Shown here piece after piece: positions 27,718-34,665 of a stretch of DNA of 47,699 bases. Position 1 is the first letter of the stretch; every line of letters begins with the position of its first letter. The DNA is taken from contig CAMLIK010000011.1 in assembly GCA_946480175.1 (NCBI GenBank), forward strand, positions 1 through 47,699. Direction: 5' to 3'. Source of the stretch: an uncultured Gilliamella sp. GTDB taxonomy: Bacteria > Pseudomonadota > Gammaproteobacteria > Enterobacterales > Orbaceae. Below the pieces are notes generated by a model. It worked only from the letters and a program-made list of their open reading frames with translations, was not told the origin of the DNA and ran no database searches. The position numbers and the translations under genes were made by a program.

Positions 27718-28095
27718 ATGTCGCTAATGATTAACAAAAAACAGTTTTATATTTTAATTATACTAGCAATCTTTTTGTTTTTTTCTTCAATTTGGCATTT
27801 TCCTTTAATAATATTCGAACGCTGTTCGAATCATCATTCATCAAATTCGATGTTATTAACCGCGAACACAAATCTTGATTATCCAACTAAAGATTCGCCG
27901 ACTTCTAAATCAACAAAACCCTTTATTAGTAAATCTGTTAAATCAGTTAATCATTGCAGTGCCTGCGGTATGATAATAGCTAATTATATCATTAATGTTG
28001 ATTACCCGATTCACCCAAAACAATATCTACCAAGCATATTTATTCCTGAATATAAAGAGTTTATTCCTGAATTAAAACCACCAAAATTTATCTAA
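27718..28095 (+). CDS. Small membrane-anchored protein, DUF2946-like, copper-associated
   Basis: 125 residues. One N-terminal hydrophobic segment (about 9-28) acts as anchor or uncleaved signal. Then come ERCSNHHSSNSM and, after a Ser/Thr/Lys-rich stretch, NHCSACGMI, both possible metal-binding clusters. The C-terminus is Pro-rich (PELKPPKF). This layout (signal, His/Cys cluster, HCxxC, Pro-rich tail) resembles DUF2946 proteins found near copper-handling genes, but similarity is limited to pattern and context. It lies 120 nt upstream of a multicopper oxidase on the same strand with no terminator between. A periplasmic copper-binding accessory role is an inference. Confidence 0.5.
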   Translation: MSLMINKKQFYILIILAIFLFFSSIWHFPLIIFERCSNHHSSNSMLLTANTNLDYPTKDSPTSKSTKPFISKSVKSVNHCSACGMIIANYIINVDYPIHPKQYLPSIFIPEYKEFIPELKPPKFI

Positions 28096-29857: not shown

Positions 29858-30613
29858 CTAACACAAAATAACTTTAGTTTTAGTTTCTAATTTCAAAACT
29901 TGAGCCGGATCAGCTAACTTATTAGTAATTAATGCCGTTATTTCATTCCAATCACAAATTTTATACAGACTTTTTCTATTAAATTTTGTGTAATCACCTA
30001 AAATATACTTTTTTTCAGCATGAGAAATGATGGCTTTATCGATATAAGCATCAGAAGATGAAGGACTGGAAGGGCCTGTTAAATTACTAAAACCATCTGT
30101 GCCTAAAAAGCATATATCAACCTGAATTTCATTAATCATAGATAATGTCCAACCACCATAAACAGATGAGCTTTTATTACGTAGTTCACCACCAAATAAG
30201 AAAACTTGATTGTCTGATGAAATAAGAGCATTGGCAACAGGTAATGAATCGGTAAAAATCTTAAATCCAGAACGATACATTAATAATTTGGCTAATTCTA
30301 ATGTAGTACTGCCTGTTCCAATAATCATAGAACAATTATCAGGTAATAATGTAAGTGCTTTTTGAGCAATGCTTTTCTTTAAGCTAGCGTTTTCCTTCTC
30401 TCTGATTTGAAATGGATGTTCAATAGCCCCTTGTTTTAGCGTTGCCCCGCCATGGCATTTGACTAAATATCCTTTTTTTTCTAAATCGGATAAATCTTTT
30501 CGAATGGTTTCATAAGTAACTGCGTATTTTCGAGCTAATTCACTCACATATACAGTCCCAGCAGTTATCAATTCTTCTAAAATTAATTCTCGTCTTTCAT
30601 TCATTAATTGCAT
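29858..30613 (-). CDS. DeoR/GlpR-family transcriptional repressor
   Basis: 251 residues. The N-terminal winged HTH (about 5-60: RRELILEELITAGTVYVSELARKYAVTYETIRKDLSDLE) is the DeoR signature. KCHGGATL leads into a C-terminal sugar-phosphate-binding domain related to phosphosugar isomerases (MIIGTGSTTLELAKLL, IFTDSLPVANAL, FLFGGELR, DICFLGTDGF, KYILGDYTKFNRKS). Members usually repress a sugar operon until the phosphorylated intermediate appears. It is divergent from the RpiB/PTS/SIS operon; three related TTGG repeats and a CRP site lie between. ATGs at 30613 and 30604 are both possible starts. Confidence 0.88.
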   Translation of the reverse strand: MQLMNERRELILEELITAGTVYVSELARKYAVTYETIRKDLSDLEKKGYLVKCHGGATLKQGAIEHPFQIREKENASLKKSIAQKALTLLPDNCSMIIGTGSTTLELAKLLMYRSGFKIFTDSLPVANALISSDNQVFLFGGELRNKSSSVYGGWTLSMINEIQVDICFLGTDGFSNLTGPSSPSSSDAYIDKAIISHAEKKYILGDYTKFNRKSLYKICDWNEITALITNKLADPAQVLKLETKTKVILC

Positions 30614-30665
30614 TGTTCACAATCTCAAATATTGATTTAGATATGACTAATTATATCTGATTATT

Positions 30666-30681
30666 ACCAATATTTTACCAA
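30666..30681 (-). promoter_or_regulatory. Candidate DeoR-family operator 1
   Basis: On the minus strand TTGGTAAAATATTGGT, a direct repeat of TTGG with 11-nt period. It lies 53 nt before the repressor gene and may mediate autoregulation. Confidence 0.45.
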
Positions 30682-30764
30682 AAAGTCCACATGATTCATT
30701 AATAATTCATCATATCCTTCATTACATTAATATTAATAAAACACAATAAAAAAATAAATTAAAA

Positions 30765-30779
30765 TTGGCTTATATTGGT
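30765..30779 (+). promoter_or_regulatory. Candidate DeoR-family operator 2
   Basis: TTGGCTTATATTGGT, matching operator 3 (reverse complement) at 12 of 15 positions. Confidence 0.5.
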
Positions 30780-30814
30780 TTTTTTAATATTATAAATCAA
30801 TATCTTATTATTTT

Positions 30815-30830
30815 TGTGATCTATATCACA
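30815..30830 (+). promoter_or_regulatory. CRP binding site of the PTS operon
   Basis: TGTGATCTATATCACA, a perfect consensus CRP site directly abutting the -35 element at 30831, i.e. a class II position around -42. Confidence 0.88.
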
Positions 30831-30859
30831 TTGACTTACCAATAAAAACCAATTATAAA
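30831..30859 (+). promoter_or_regulatory. Sigma-70 promoter of the rpiB-like/PTS/SIS operon
   Basis: TTGACT (-35, 30831-30836), a 17-nt spacer and TATAAA (-10, 30854-30859). The spacer contains candidate operator 3. Confidence 0.75.
30838..30852 (-). promoter_or_regulatory. Candidate DeoR-family operator 3, between -35 and -10
   Basis: On the minus strand TTGGTTTTTATTGGT, a 10-nt-period direct repeat like operator 2. Binding here would block RNA polymerase. Confidence 0.55.
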
Positions 30860-30888
30860 ATGATTATTAATTTAATAGAGGAAAAAAA

Positions 30889-31410
30889 ATGAAAACAAAA
30901 ATTGCTATAGCTAGCGACGACTTAGGATTTGAATATAAAGAAGAAATCAAAAAATACCTGATTAATGAAAAAAATGCCGATGTTGTTTATGACCCAGTAA
31001 AAGTTAAAGCAGATGGCATCAATACTTATGCCAAATTGGCTGATGAAATGTCAATCTTGATACAGAAAGATGTTTGTCGTTTAGGAATATATATTTGTGG
31101 AACAGGTATTGGTTTTACCTGCCAAGCTAACAAACACTGGGGTATTCGTGCTGTTGCTGTCACTAATCCCTATTCAGCTAAACGAGCTAGGCTAAGCAAT
31201 AATGCTCAAATCATAGGACTAGGTTGTCGAGTCAATAGCCTTGAATATACCAAAATGATCTTAGACGCATGGTACGACCAACCATTTGATTTTACTACTG
31301 CGCGTGAAAATTCGAAGAAAAACTTGCTTGAAGCTGAGCGTAATGACAATGCGTTATTGGTCAAACCTGCTCATATTGCTTGGAATATGGGCTTTCGAGC
31401 CAATGAGTAA
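30889..31410 (+). CDS. RpiB/LacA/LacB-family sugar-phosphate isomerase, divergent
   Basis: 173 residues, longer than E. coli RpiB (149) and near LacB (171). The catalytic Cys70 is present in YICGTGIGFTCQANK, and GIRAVAVTNPYSAKRAR follows the RpiB pattern. Two RpiB active-site histidines are changed: the Asp-His after the first strand reads SDD (residues 9-11), and the ring-opening His of SRQHND is Ser in RARLSNN. The enzyme should shift a carbonyl between C1 and C2 of a phosphorylated sugar. Loss of the ring-opening His suggests a substrate that need not be opened (for example a tetrulose 4-phosphate) or a different sugar. First gene of a PTS operon; AGGA precedes the ATG. Confidence 0.8.
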   Translation: MKTKIAIASDDLGFEYKEEIKKYLINEKNADVVYDPVKVKADGINTYAKLADEMSILIQKDVCRLGIYICGTGIGFTCQANKHWGIRAVAVTNPYSAKRARLSNNAQIIGLGCRVNSLEYTKMILDAWYDQPFDFTTARENSKKNLLEAERNDNALLVKPAHIAWNMGFRANE

Positions 31411-31428
31411 CGATAAAAGGAGTCACAT

Positions 31429-32799
31429 ATGGAATTAATTACACAATTTATCAATGACTTAGGAAACTTTATTTTTATTCCTATAATATTTTTAATCTTA
31501 ATGGCTGCGCTTGGCAGGCCTATTTCTGAATGTATTGCTTCTGCAATGAAAGTCGGTATTGGCTTTATTGCATTAAGTATGACAATTAAATTTATGCTAG
31601 ATAAAATGGCTCCTGCTGTTACAGGACTCGCCGAAAGCACAGGATCTTCACTCAGTGCAATTGACGTTGGTGGTGCAGCAACTGCTGTAATGGGATTTGG
31701 CTCAAGTATGGGACCAATCATTATTCCACTATGTGTTGCAGTTAATATTTTATTACTTATATTAAAAATCACTGATTGTGTTAATGTCGATGTTTTTAAT
31801 TTACACCAAAATGCCTCGATGGGTGCAATCGTAGGTGTTTATTCAGGTAGTTTCTTATATGGTGTATTAACAGCTGCACTATTTCACGTTTGGGCATTAA
31901 TTGCTGCTGATCTAGGCGCAAAAAATAATGAGAAATTTTTTAACCTTCCAGAAGGGGTCTCAATTTCACATCCTGTTGCAAACACTTACCTTATTTTTGC
32001 TTATCCATTTAATTGGATTTATGATCGTATTCCGGGCTTTAGAAATATAACTGTTACAGCCGATACTATTCAAAAACGTTTTGGTGTGCTTGGCGATCCA
32101 ACTATAGTCGGCTTTATTATTGGTGTATTACTTGGTTTTTGTGGTTATGATTGGGAAAGCCCATATCACACCATCATTTCAAGCTTACAATTAGGCATGT
32201 ACTTAGCGGCAGTAATGTTATTGTTACCACGCATGACATCAATTATGATGGAAGGTTTAGTACCATTATCAAATGTAGCAAGAAAAAAACTAGTTAAACG
32301 TTTCCCTAATCGAGATATTACCGTTGGAATGGATACTGCATTAATTGTTGGTAACCCTTCCGTTATCGCTCCTGCTTTATTACTAATTCCGATTATTGTT
32401 ATTTTAGCCGTTATTTTACCCGGCAATAAGGTTATGCCATTAGGTGATTTATCACAATTTGTTTTCTTTATTGCTTGTATGGTTCCTGTATTTAAAGGCA
32501 ACATTATCCGTACCTGGGTTACATCAATATTTTTATTTGGAGGCGGATTATATATTGCATCATGGATGACACCTGCAACTAACGAAGTATTCCAAGCGTT
32601 TGGCTCTAATCCAGATGCATCTGTAATGTATACCTCATTAAATCCATCAGCAAATCCATTTACTGGACTATTTGCAGCAACTAGTCATGTGGGAATATTT
32701 GGTTACATATTAATTGGCTTAATTTTGCTATCAGTAGGCTATCTATTAAAGAAAAAAGAAAAAAATTCCAAAAATAATACAAGTGAGGTTTCAAAATGA
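31429..32799 (+). CDS. PTS system galactitol-type EIIC permease
   Basis: 456 residues (E. coli GatC 451), with about 10-12 hydrophobic segments. Family-typical blocks are LGRPISECIASAMKVGIGFIAL, DVGGAATAVMGFGSSMGP, FNLHQNASMGAIVGVYSGSFLYG and KRFPNRDITVGMDTALIVGNPSVIAPALL. It is the membrane channel that takes up and phosphorylates a polyol, ketose or related sugar with the IIB and IIA encoded next. The Gat family includes carriers for galactitol, arabitol, tetritols and others, so the substrate cannot be named from sequence. AAAGGAG lies before the ATG. The end overlaps the IIB start by 4 nt. Confidence 0.9.
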   Translation: MELITQFINDLGNFIFIPIIFLILMAALGRPISECIASAMKVGIGFIALSMTIKFMLDKMAPAVTGLAESTGSSLSAIDVGGAATAVMGFGSSMGPIIIPLCVAVNILLLILKITDCVNVDVFNLHQNASMGAIVGVYSGSFLYGVLTAALFHVWALIAADLGAKNNEKFFNLPEGVSISHPVANTYLIFAYPFNWIYDRIPGFRNITVTADTIQKRFGVLGDPTIVGFIIGVLLGFCGYDWESPYHTIISSLQLGMYLAAVMLLLPRMTSIMMEGLVPLSNVARKKLVKRFPNRDITVGMDTALIVGNPSVIAPALLLIPIIVILAVILPGNKVMPLGDLSQFVFFIACMVPVFKGNIIRTWVTSIFLFGGGLYIASWMTPATNEVFQAFGSNPDASVMYTSLNPSANPFTGLFAATSHVGIFGYILIGLILLSVGYLLKKKEKNSKNNTSEVSK

Positions 32800-33080
32800 A
32801 AAAAATATTAGTGGTATGTGGTAATGGTATTGCTTCTTCATCAATCATGGTTTCAATTTTGCAAGATTATTTGAAAGAACAGCATATTGAAGCTCAAGTA
32901 GATAAATCTTCACTTATGGCTTGCAATGCTGATATTTTTAATAGTTATGATTTAGTTGTTTCATCAACAAAAATTGATAATCCTGATATAACTACCAAGG
33001 TTATTGTTGGAGGTGGTTTATTAACTGGTCTCGGAGAAGATGCCATTTTTGAAGCAGTTAAACAAACTTTAACTCAATAA
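32796..33080 (+). CDS. PTS system galactitol-type EIIB
   Basis: 94 residues, the same length as E. coli GatB. The phosphorylated Cys8 lies in VVCGNGIASSSIM, the phosphocysteine P-loop of Gat-type IIB. VVSSTKI and VIVGGGLLTG complete the small alpha/beta fold. It accepts phosphate from IIA and passes it to the sugar bound in IIC. The start overlaps the IIC stop (ATGA), giving coupled translation. Confidence 0.9.
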   Translation: MKKILVVCGNGIASSSIMVSILQDYLKEQHIEAQVDKSSLMACNADIFNSYDLVVSSTKIDNPDITTKVIVGGGLLTGLGEDAIFEAVKQTLTQ

Positions 33081-33094
33081 GTAGGAATTTAACC

Positions 33095-33544
33095 ATGCAC
33101 ATTTTAGTTCATGATTTAGATGAAAAAATTAAAACTTATCAAGATGCTATATTAGAGTCAGGTTCATATTTATTAGAAAAAAACTATATTACACCTGACT
33201 ATATTTCAGCGTGTATCAATCGAGAAAAGGAATATCCAACTGGATTACTGATGAACAATGGCATAGGGATTGCTATACCACATGCTAATTATCAATTAGT
33301 TAAATCAGATTCAATTAGTTTGGTACGCTCAACAAAAGGAGTAATTTTCGGTCAAATGGAGGATGCCAACTTAATGGTATCTTGCCAATTAATTTTCAAT
33401 TTAGCATTGGCAACAAGTGATCAACATTTATCAATTCTCAGACGTCTATTTACTTTATTTCAAGATGAGTCTTTTGTGAATAAATGCCAACAATCTAATT
33501 GCCAACAAACTCAAGAATTAATCATTCAACAGTTAAACATTTAG
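33095..33544 (+). CDS. PTS system galactitol/fructose-type EIIA
   Basis: 149 residues (E. coli GatA 150). His63 in GIGIAIPHANYQLV is the phosphorylation site of the Fru/Mtl/Gat-type IIA domain. LEKNYITPDYISACINREKEYPTGL, just before it, is also typical. It receives phosphate from HPr. It lies 14 nt after IIB, and AGGA precedes the ATG. Confidence 0.9.
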   Translation: MHILVHDLDEKIKTYQDAILESGSYLLEKNYITPDYISACINREKEYPTGLLMNNGIGIAIPHANYQLVKSDSISLVRSTKGVIFGQMEDANLMVSCQLIFNLALATSDQHLSILRRLFTLFQDESFVNKCQQSNCQQTQELIIQQLNI

Positions 33545-33557
33545 TATACATTTTATG

Positions 33558-33587
33558 ATCGAAAAATAGCAGTAACTATTTTTCGAT
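33558..33587 (+). promoter_or_regulatory. Hairpin directly upstream of the SIS gene SD
   Basis: ATCGAAAAATAG and CTATTTTTCGAT form a perfect 12-bp stem with a 6-nt loop, ending one base before AGGAG (33589-33593 region) of the next gene. No U-run follows. It may set the expression ratio between the PTS and SIS genes by RNA processing or partial attenuation. Confidence 0.55.
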
Positions 33588-33598
33588 AGGAGATAAAA

Positions 33599-34138
33599 GT
33601 GCAATCACAATTAATTATGGATGAATTGAATCATTCAGTTAAAACATTGACCGATGATGACATCATTGATCTAATACAAAAAATACAACAGCATAAACGT
33701 ATTTTTGTGTATGGTACCGGGCGCTCAGGTCTTATGCTTAAAGCATTTGCAATGAGACTGATGCAACTGGGTTTAAACTCCTTTGTGGTCGGTGAAACGA
33801 CAACTCCAGCGGTTCAAAAAGGAGACTTACTCATTTTAGCATCTGCATCTGGTGAAACAGAAAGCGTAAATATAATGGCGAAATCAGCACTCAATCAAAG
33901 AATTGATTTAGCTATAATTTGCGCATCTAACACATCTACACTAGCAAAACTCCAAACACCAAATATATTATTACAATCTGGAACTAAGTTTAATAAGTCA
34001 CAAGTTAGCAAACAACCATTAGGTAGCCTTTTTGAACAAATGTTACTGATTATATTTGATACTGTTATTTTAGTTATGAGTAAAAAACAAAAAAGTAGTA
34101 ATAACGATATGGCACAACGACATGCTAGTTTAGAATAG
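33599..34138 (+). CDS. SIS-domain protein, 6-phospho-3-hexuloisomerase (HxlB)-like
   Basis: 179 residues; starts with GTG, preceded by AGGAG at good spacing. A single SIS domain has VYGTGRSGLMLKAFAMRL (about 38-55), the phosphosugar loop LILASASGETESV, QPLGSLFEQMLLIIFD and the C-terminal RHASLE, all characteristic of PHI/HxlB. PHI interconverts 3-hexulose 6-phosphate and fructose 6-phosphate. Its usual partner in the ribulose monophosphate pathway, HxlA, is absent. Here it ends a PTS operon with an RpiB-like isomerase, so it probably converts the PTS product or its isomer into a central intermediate. The true substrate is unknown. Confidence 0.82.
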   Translation: MQSQLIMDELNHSVKTLTDDDIIDLIQKIQQHKRIFVYGTGRSGLMLKAFAMRLMQLGLNSFVVGETTTPAVQKGDLLILASASGETESVNIMAKSALNQRIDLAIICASNTSTLAKLQTPNILLQSGTKFNKSQVSKQPLGSLFEQMLLIIFDTVILVMSKKQKSSNNDMAQRHASLE

Positions 34139-34153
34139 TAGTATAATAATTTA

Positions 34154-34188
34154 TTTTAAAACCACTTATTTTGTGAGTGGTTTTAAAA
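34154..34188 (+). terminator. Terminator of the PTS/SIS operon
   Basis: TTTTAAAACCACT and AGTGGTTTTAAAA form a perfect 13-bp stem with a 9-nt loop, 16 nt after the stop. The stem itself contains the T/A runs, so it may work in both directions. Confidence 0.75.
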
Positions 34189-34320: not shown

Positions 34321-34665
34321 ATGACCATGATTAATTACTGGCAACAAATTAGTAAACGCCTCATCATTAAAACTGCACTATCGCACTTATTATTAGGTGT
34401 AATTGCTGCTGGATTCGGTTTTTACGAAGAAAATGTACTACCAGTTCAATCATCTTCCACACAGGTGGGTATTATTGCGATTACTGCAATTGTACAAGAT
34501 CACCAAACTCCGATAAGAAAAGAATCTCAAACTTTACCTTTGTCACAAAAACAGCATTATAATAAACAAATTATTTCGCTTAATTATGACAAAGTTAGTT
34601 TTAATACCGTTATTCGATTATCAGCTTATAATGGAATAAGGGCCGGCCCCAAAGCTACCGTATAA
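34321..34665 (+). CDS. secM: SecM, secretion monitor with ribosome arrest peptide
   Basis: 114 residues, against 170 in E. coli. The N-terminus is a SecM-type signal sequence (basic start, then SHLLLGVIAAGFGF at 21-34, very like E. coli). The C-terminus carries the arrest peptide FNTVIRLSAYNGIRAGP (94-110) plus a four-residue tail, exactly as in E. coli. Phe94 and GIRAGP keep the E. coli spacing, but the Trp is Arg99 and the following Ile is Leu100. The middle of the protein is about 55 residues shorter. By stalling its own ribosome until it is pulled by the Sec machinery, SecM exposes the secA start. secA begins 84 nt downstream. Confidence 0.9.
   Translation: MTMINYWQQISKRLIIKTALSHLLLGVIAAGFGFYEENVLPVQSSSTQVGIIAITAIVQDHQTPIRKESQTLPLSQKQHYNKQIISLNYDKVSFNTVIRLSAYNGIRAGPKATV

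Follow-up and report, generated by a model that had tools for sequence, protein, structure and literature searches.

A phosphotransferase operon of Gilliamella with an unusual isomerase pair and its possible route through hex-3-ulose 6-phosphate

The catabolism of D-allose and D-allulose (psicose), which combines an RpiB-family isomerase (RpiB/AlsI) with the epimerase AlsE, ends at fructose 6-phosphate, and in the ribulose monophosphate pathway HxlA and HxlB share hex-3-ulose 6-phosphate. Here we describe an operon on a 47,699-nucleotide contig of an uncultured Gilliamella sp., a bee-gut bacterium (contig C11 of a 2.54-Mb, 173-contig genome; the whole contig is called the window) that is a known kind of sugar-uptake operon with an unusual pair of isomerases not known to act together, one enzyme being RpiB-like and the other an SIS protein of the HxlB, or 6-phospho-3-hexuloisomerase (PHI), family. 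Like the allose/allulose system, it encodes an RpiB-family isomerase and would end at fructose 6-phosphate, but its module holds HxlB and no AlsE epimerase, and whereas the E. coli allose system relies on an ABC transporter and a kinase, import here would proceed by a Gat-type phosphotransferase system (PTS). With the ribulose monophosphate pathway it shares the HxlB family and presumably the last step, yet it lacks HxlA and would be fed by an imported sugar rather than by formaldehyde. The galactitol and tagatose/lactose operons (GatABC, LacAB) have in common with it a Gat-type PTS, a DeoR-type repressor and the LacA/LacB superfamily, but the window module is devoid of a dehydrogenase, kinase or bisphosphate aldolase, and its RpiB-like protein lies far below both the LacA and LacB cut-offs. 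The RpiB fold is likewise shared with DerI/EryI and with the RpiB of Coccidioides, whose serine in place of the ring-opening histidine (PMC3212906) recurs here; unlike DerI/EryI, however, the protein misses the DerI cut-off by a wide margin and has different partner enzymes.

We tentatively propose that an imported ketohexose phosphate, probably allulose 6-phosphate, is converted by the RpiB-like enzyme to hex-3-ulose 6-phosphate, from which HxlB then forms fructose 6-phosphate. Searching the open-access literature, a scope that leaves most subscription papers outside, we found no paper assigning a substrate to this gene set, in keeping with an earlier note made from the sequence alone, which knew of no characterised pathway of this composition.

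Genes of the operon and its two isomerases

The features of the locus are as follows.

29858..30613, minus strand: DeoR-family repressor, divergent to the operon, with the DeoR HTH and sensor domains (PF08220 and PF00455) above cut-off
30774..30783 and 30844..30853: halves of the inverted repeat ATTGGTTTTT/AAAAACCAAT, candidate DeoR operator
30815..30830: CRP-like site TGTGATCTATATCACA, 10 of 10 consensus letters
30889..31410, plus strand: RpiB-like sugar-phosphate isomerase, 173 aa, PF02502 (LacAB_rpiB)
31429..32799, plus strand: Gat-type PTS IIC, 456 aa, PF03611 (EIIC-GAT; 215.8 bits, cut-off 24.2)
32796..33080, plus strand: PTS IIB, 94 aa, PF02302 (PTS_IIB)
33095..33544, plus strand: PTS IIA of the fructose/galactitol type, 149 aa, PF00359 (PTS_EIIA_2)
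33599..34138, plus strand: HxlB-type SIS isomerase (6-phospho-3-hexuloisomerase family) with a GTG start, TIGR03127
34158..34184, plus strand: inverted repeat AAAACCACT...AGTGGTTTT, read from the sequence, probable terminator

These coordinates and domains confirm the layout of DeoR, RpiB-like, Gat-type IIC-IIB-IIA and SIS genes described in the earlier note, and the PHI motifs quoted there are indeed present in the SIS protein. All six products, from DeoR to SIS, score above the Pfam cut-offs for their domains; the gaps within the operon measure, in order, 18, -4, 14 and 54 bases, and a GGA/GAGG stretch resembling a ribosome site lies upstream of every operon gene. The IIC frame of 456 aa compares with a longest open reading frame (ORF) of 147 aa in 100 base shuffles of the region (mean longest 76), whereas for IIB and IIA length alone is insufficient and the domain matches carry both calls. 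The IIC protein misses the galactitol-specific subfamily TIGR00827 (332.9 bits against a cut-off of 542.2).

The window's HxlB passes the curated model TIGR03127 RuMP_HxlB (198.8 bits, cut-off 160) and keeps GRSG, SGET, QP-GSLFEQ and HA-LE, a motif list derived from the same alignment of 19 SIS proteins in which it was read; its closest solved structures are those of YckF (1m3s, 1viv). The enzyme presumably isomerises hex-3-ulose 6-phosphate to fructose 6-phosphate. Just as the earlier note had it, the operon lacks HxlA, and no match above cut-off occurs in the window's genome (86% complete; best 128 bits against 200) or in five relatives of 99-100% completeness (G012, G014, G017, G025 and G032). 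The top HxlA-like match of the window's genome is a 3-dehydro-L-gulonate-6-phosphate decarboxylase (UlaD-type; 311.4 bits, cut-off 250) in what reads as an ascorbate-type cluster, and in the three Gilliamella genomes where sub-cut-off matches were classified (G014, G017 and the window's own, G000) the strongest are UlaD-type, above that family's cut-off. Across the 20 genomes that carry the cassette, 17 have no HxlA above cut-off, all 20 have weaker matches, and some of the sub-cut-off matches adjoin an HxlB (G270, G275, G281); the three with HxlA are a Paenibacillus (G279), a Tetragenococcus (G281) and Enterococcus raffinosus (G270). Formaldehyde fixation was rejected as the principal function on the count of those 17 genomes.

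The RpiB-like protein falls below every equivalog cut-off listed, namely those of the RpiB models (TIGR01120, 99.4 against 138.65; PRK05571, 116.1 against 135), of the DerI/EryI model NF051858, whose name specifies rhizobial members (98.4 against 240), and of the lacA and lacB models (TIGR01118, 37.2 against 181.1; TIGR01119, 39.2 against 312.55), and it passes the broad subfamily model TIGR00689 (95.1 against 88.3). A LacAB-type galactose 6-phosphate route was rejected on the missed LacA/LacB cut-offs; the operon also holds a single such gene rather than a LacA and LacB pair. With relatives 72-82% identical across Gilliamella, enterics and Firmicutes (alignment A2) and a conserved C-terminal tail containing WNMGF, the protein by its sequence forms a subfamily of its own. 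Its predicted structure has the RpiB fold (mean pLDDT, the predicted local distance difference test score, of 86, with the last 13 residues in blocks of mean 52), and its best Foldseek matches are Coccidioides RpiB, at the top, and E. coli RpiB; the model adds only the fold. Two chains enclose the active site, and the pocket is invisible in a monomer. In the alignments the catalytic cysteine is conserved, Cys70 aligning with the Cys of CGTG, whereas Ser103 stands in place of the ring-opening histidine of E. coli RpiB and Asp11 in place of a phosphate-anchoring histidine, residues whose roles are set out in PMC4783025 and PMC3212906. Coccidioides RpiB has the same His-to-Ser change, and its authors suspected shorter substrates (PMC3212906).

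Replacement of HxlB across related loci and modules

The window's genome holds two further clear HxlBs, each ending a different PTS gene set, and modules were labelled by BLAST against three reference modules of this genome: module 1 is the window operon's cassette, module 2 (contig C27) runs IIB-IIC-IIA-Rpe-like-SDR-HxlB, SDR being a short-chain dehydrogenase/reductase, and module 3 (contig C54) runs IIA-IIC-IIB-YjbQ-Rpe-like-HxlB. We tabulated 31 related loci, which are not independent, Gilliamella and many of the enterics being near relatives. An SIS gene lies inside module 1 in 23 of them, a count that includes two loci fused with module 2, one with the SIS gene on the other strand (L050), the broken L054, a 110-aa HxlB remnant (L088) and a KpsF/GutQ-like gene (L052). 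Seven loci have no SIS gene in module 1, but their neighbouring module, 2 or 3, has an HxlB as its last gene; in the remaining one (L113), HxlA takes the place of HxlB.

The HxlB proteins diverge far more than the rest of the cassette. Between the window and Klebsiella oxytoca the RpiB-like protein is 80% and IIC 87% identical, but HxlB only 36%; for Mitsuokella, whose HxlB is the closest outside Gilliamella in the comparison, the values are 75%, 76% and 57%. Six loci compared with the window give 36-57% for HxlB against 75-82% for the RpiB-like protein, and among eight loci the RpiB-like protein and IIC are 66-85% and 68-93% identical. The approximately unbiased test rejects the grouping of the module-1 HxlBs as one clade (p-AU 0.0026; 18 rows, 8 of them from module 1), in a tree that omitted the KpsF-like L052 row and contains two long branches. 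By sequence comparison, then, the module-1 HxlBs are distant replacements not inherited with the cassette: they do not form one clade while the RpiB-like protein and IIC stay similar, which argues that HxlB was re-recruited. PHI signature and HxlB cut-off are kept in five of the six other module-1 SIS proteins scored, and because the gene has repeatedly been replaced by the same kind of enzyme, an HxlB-type activity seems to be required for the cassette to function.

The two exceptional loci, L113 and L052, are separate loci of one Tetragenococcus halophilus genome. The RpiB-like gene of L113, 62% identical to that of the window, occurs with an ascorbate-type PTS and an HxlA scoring 262.8 bits on TIGR03128 (cut-off 200). 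The fifth gene of L052 resembles those of arabinose-5-phosphate isomerases, scoring 118.8 bits on the KpsF model (cut-off 203.7) against 63 on that of HxlB. No Rpe/AlsE-family match lies inside module 1 in any of the 31 loci; in L030 and L031 module 1 is fused to a module 2 that brings an Rpe-like gene. Seven of the ten cassette genomes searched contain a single Rpe/AlsE-family match, presumably Rpe itself, so that AlsE seems not to be needed, and the same count led us to drop C4 epimerisation as a route for module 1.

Module 2 resembles the window operon in its Gat-type PTS and HxlB, is often adjacent to it and sometimes supplies the sole HxlB there; it differs in having a dehydrogenase and an epimerase, no RpiB-like gene and a regulator that in enterics is of the SorC type. 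Modules 1 and 2 are often back to back in loci of Klebsiella, Enterobacter, Citrobacter, Providencia and E. coli, and in the related genomes G012 and G015 they are fused at the window's site with one HxlB at the end, the only HxlB match of either genome. Each can nonetheless stand alone: among 217 genomes of the family of the enteric G195, the module 2 SDR occurs in seven, the RpiB-like gene in six (E 1e-50; one copy broken) and both in three. The sole printed trace we found in the open-access literature is an annotation of module 2 in the OVR-A locus of Pantoea ananatis (SorC-type regulator, Gat PTS, Rpe, FabG-like and HxlB), listed in PMC5817063, which deals with accessory genes correlated with onion pathogenicity.

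Two Gilliamella genomes, G028 and G034, contain module 3, and G026 contains it minus the PTS genes; no RpiB-family match to the window protein occurs in any of the three. Within module 3 of Gilliamella and Enterococcus, a YjbQ-family protein is encoded between PTS IIB and the Rpe-like epimerase (L027:4986-5501 and L112:5552-6064; 63.7 bits, just below the cut-off of 67.75), and we know of no role of YjbQ in sugar-phosphate metabolism. A fourth arrangement joins AlsE-like and HxlB proteins to a mannitol-phosphate-dehydrogenase-like protein and a mannitol-type PTS; it occurs in Enterococcus raffinosus as well as in another genome from the window's family. A further cluster of E. raffinosus (L108:6626-14618) encodes a mannitol-type PTS, an MtlD-like dehydrogenase, HxlA (270.2 bits), HxlB and DhaL/DhaK-like proteins, the last identified by eye, and seems from its genes to be another sugar or polyol route using the HxlA/HxlB pair. 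On contig C59 of the window's own genome (L034:3013-6989), a glc-type PTS, an AlsE-like epimerase that passes the Rpe cut-off and misses that of AlsE, an RpiB and an RpiR-type regulator, the cluster being read by eye, probably constitute an allose-type operon independent of the window operon.

A possible pathway and its alternatives

In the pathway that we tentatively favour, the Gat-type PTS would import a ketohexose as its 6-phosphate, the RpiB-like enzyme would shift the carbonyl from C2 to C3 to yield hex-3-ulose 6-phosphate, and HxlB would return the carbonyl with the other configuration at C3, giving fructose 6-phosphate. The scheme has a counterpart one carbon shorter: RpiB links ribose 5-phosphate and ribulose 5-phosphate, arabinose-5-phosphate isomerase, itself an SIS enzyme, links ribulose 5-phosphate and arabinose 5-phosphate, and the addition of a hydroxymethyl group at C1 turns these three compounds into allulose 6-phosphate, hex-3-ulose 6-phosphate and fructose 6-phosphate. 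We infer that the window pair would copy the RpiB/arabinose-5-phosphate isomerase pair on a longer chain. D-Allulose would most likely be the substrate, because the D-ribo configuration of its C3-C4-C5 is the one recognised by RpiB in ribose 5-phosphate. That the RpiB-like enzyme itself makes the 3-ketose fits the loci, since what adjoins it is HxlB, HxlA or a KpsF/GutQ-like SIS protein; if so, HxlB need not perform both halves of the 3-epimerisation, and the evidence favours an arrangement in which each isomerase does its own part. An exit at fructose 6-phosphate through a 3-ketose, already envisaged in the earlier note, appears likely.

Several points weigh against this proposal. By our derivation, if both enzymes use a cis-enediol and transfer the proton on one face, allulose 6-phosphate and fructose 6-phosphate would lead to 3-ketoses of opposite C2 configuration, the former giving the D-ribo 3-ketose and HxlB being known for the D-arabino one, so that one of the two steps must go another way; the RpiB reaction is described as cis-enediolate in PMC4783025. 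The Ser103 and Asp11 substitutions, the first as in the Coccidioides RpiB of PMC3212906, favour tetroses. The HxlA and KpsF-like replacements come from one locus each of one genome, the KpsF-like protein lies under its own family's cut-off, and both were spotted before the hypothesis was framed and are therefore no test of it. The clade put to the test was named once a first tree and the identities had been seen. In addition, a PTS may phosphorylate ketoses at C1, and AlsE elsewhere performs the same net reaction in one step.

In a rather unlikely alternative, the PTS would deliver an aldohexose such as allose or altrose as its 6-phosphate, the RpiB-like enzyme would perform the usual C1/C2 shift from this to allulose 6-phosphate and HxlB alone would carry this through the 3-ketose to fructose 6-phosphate, replacing AlsE. 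RpiB enzymes act on allose 6-phosphate according to a title cited within PMC3212906 and PMC8208507, and the single Rpe/AlsE-family match of most cassette genomes agrees with this scheme as well; but it requires an HxlB that accepts either configuration at C3, the HxlA adjoining the RpiB-like gene in L113 suggests the 3-ketose as the meeting point, and the window's genome has its separate allose-type-looking cluster on C59. The earlier idea of PHI acting in place of AlsE is plausible and gains support from the missing HxlA and, for most genomes searched, the missing AlsE, although the replacement pattern favours divided labour, while the allose scheme attached to that idea becomes a weaker guess in view of C59. 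An unlikely tetrose route would have the PTS import erythrulose as its 1-phosphate, HxlB produce D-erythrulose 4-phosphate and the RpiB-like enzyme, as an analogue of DerI/EryI, produce erythrose 4-phosphate. For the tetritol alternative of the earlier note, the substitutions at Ser103 and Asp11 speak in its favour, the serine being shared with an RpiB suspected of acting on short substrates (PMC3212906), as does a DerI score near that of the RpiB model, and a route including module 2 would mirror steps of erythritol breakdown in Brucella. The DerI cut-off is missed, however, the carbonyl on which HxlB is known to act lies three carbons from the phosphate rather than adjacent to it, and the route has no place for the HxlA of L113; a tetritol pathway shared by modules 1 and 2 was rejected because four of the seven genomes with module 2 lack the RpiB-like gene, and in those the wider scheme fails.

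A pentose route, with the SIS protein as an arabinose-5-phosphate isomerase, the RpiB-like protein acting on another pentose phosphate and both leading to ribulose 5-phosphate, would accommodate the KpsF/GutQ-like gene of L052 and the HxlA of L113, which also uses ribulose 5-phosphate. We regard it as very unlikely, given that the PHI signature and the HxlB cut-off are retained by the window's HxlB as by most other module-1 SIS proteins scored, and that one isomerase would suffice for a single pentose. Least probable of all, HxlB would be a bystander, or would detoxify formaldehyde with an HxlA encoded elsewhere, while the RpiB-like/PTS cassette works alone: the seven loci without HxlB in module 1 and the remnant in L088 could be taken this way, and so could the Gilliamella genome G022, which retains an orphan HxlB at the site without module 1, but in the seven an HxlB is supplied by the neighbouring module 2 or 3, HxlA above cut-off is missing in 17 of 20 genomes, and the HxlBs of module 1 do not share a single origin.

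Returning to the favoured route through hex-3-ulose 6-phosphate, we can extend it, more doubtfully, to a view in which this compound, so far familiar from formaldehyde fixation, would serve rare six-carbon sugars in general as the point of entry, fed by pentose-phosphate enzymes one carbon out of register, with HxlB as the common exit. Module 1 would feed it from allulose 6-phosphate through the RpiB-like enzyme, and the Rpe-like epimerases of modules 2 and 3 would act at C4 of a xylulose-like 3-ketose derived from hexitol or other ketose phosphates. The epimerases of modules 2 and 3 score higher with the Rpe than with the AlsE model (223.2 against 182.8 and 209.3 against 176.2 bits), which says little because the AlsE-like protein of the allose-type cluster scores likewise (228.1 against 202.7). 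Such a scheme, if true, would achieve epimerisation at C3 and C4 without AlsE or aldolases.

Distribution, regulation and significance

Among 60 genomes, of which 35 (the window's own included) belong to its genus, the RpiB-like gene was found at 88-100% identity in seven, all of this genus, and the other RpiB-family matches reach 43% or less. The full operon is present in all seven, with secM adjoining in six and the seventh stretch ending before it; the nearest relative at the locus is Gilliamella apicola ESL0177, with an RpiB-like protein 99% identical. In the Gilliamella genome G022, an orphan HxlB (L075:9553-10092, 77% identical) occupies the secM site, module 1 is missing and the best RpiB-family match is 41% identical. 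A scan of the genome collection with two peptide patterns from close relatives, which reaches near family members only, returned 22 loci, 19 of the family (63-99%) and three, L055-L057 (30-38%), that were dropped as ordinary RpiBs. The family extends to Gilliamella, Klebsiella, Enterobacter, Citrobacter, Providencia, Proteus and other enterics and to Enterococcus, Paenibacillus, Mitsuokella and Tetragenococcus, and the gene order, whose occurrence in other Orbaceae and Firmicutes the earlier note had raised, was found in both. The RpiB-like gene is carried by four of the 345 genomes in the order that includes Enterococcus raffinosus (E 1e-35), one of 250 of the class of Mitsuokella and, at 60% identity or above, 39 of 72,556 plasmid records, the plasmid matches listed being mostly from Klebsiella and Enterobacter; parts of the Klebsiella two-module locus match eight of 5,426 E. 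coli genomes, counting near matches only. Since it is rare, scattered over distant bacteria and borne on plasmids, the cassette is, on these sequence matches, patchy and mobile.

Expression of the operon may be repressed by DeoR and activated by CRP. Scored against the CRP consensus, the CRP-like site matches at 10 of 10 letters in all seven Gilliamella loci, at -72 to -78. Of the 17 enteric loci, 16 match at 9 of 10, at -75 to -81, a score reached there by 0-4 of 200 shuffles of the same stretch; in the remaining enteric locus (L042; 7 of 10) and in all seven Firmicutes loci the upstream match is no better than shuffles. The site sits within the inverted repeat ATTGGTTTTT/AAAAACCAAT, which may be the DeoR operator, and operator-like hexamers occur upstream in 27 of 31 loci, a count made without a chance control (none in L051, L052, L113 and L114). 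A DeoR match likewise accompanies 27 of 31 loci, the others being L051, L052, L113 and L048, which starts at a contig end; the best NCBIfam match of the window's DeoR protein is AgaR (167.6 bits, under the cut-off of 260). The probable terminator at 34158-34184 was not listed by a simple terminator scan, its stem having few G-C pairs, and scans of the window gave no Rfam match above gathering score and no tRNA.

The operon is flanked by a multicopper oxidase gene on one side and by a secM-like ORF and secA on the other. The SecM-like ORF (34321-34665, plus strand), ahead of secA, scores 34 bits on the SecM model (cut-off 100), is 60-88% identical in five relatives at the same site and ends in GIRAGPKATV, which resembles the arrest peptide of E. 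coli SecM. A small ORF at 27718-28095 (plus strand) has no family match and is 29-64% identical in six relatives, against 74-95% for the adjoining multicopper oxidase; judging by these identities it is fast evolving, and it is perhaps copper-related.

If the proposed route through hex-3-ulose 6-phosphate is true, it would give HxlB a role in genomes that lack HxlA, as 17 of the 20 here do, and rare sugars like allulose, now a food sweetener, would have a second bacterial route, also present on plasmids of Klebsiella and Enterobacter. It would likewise give a clear prediction for the RpiB/LacAB and HxlB families, whose members are named after distant relatives.

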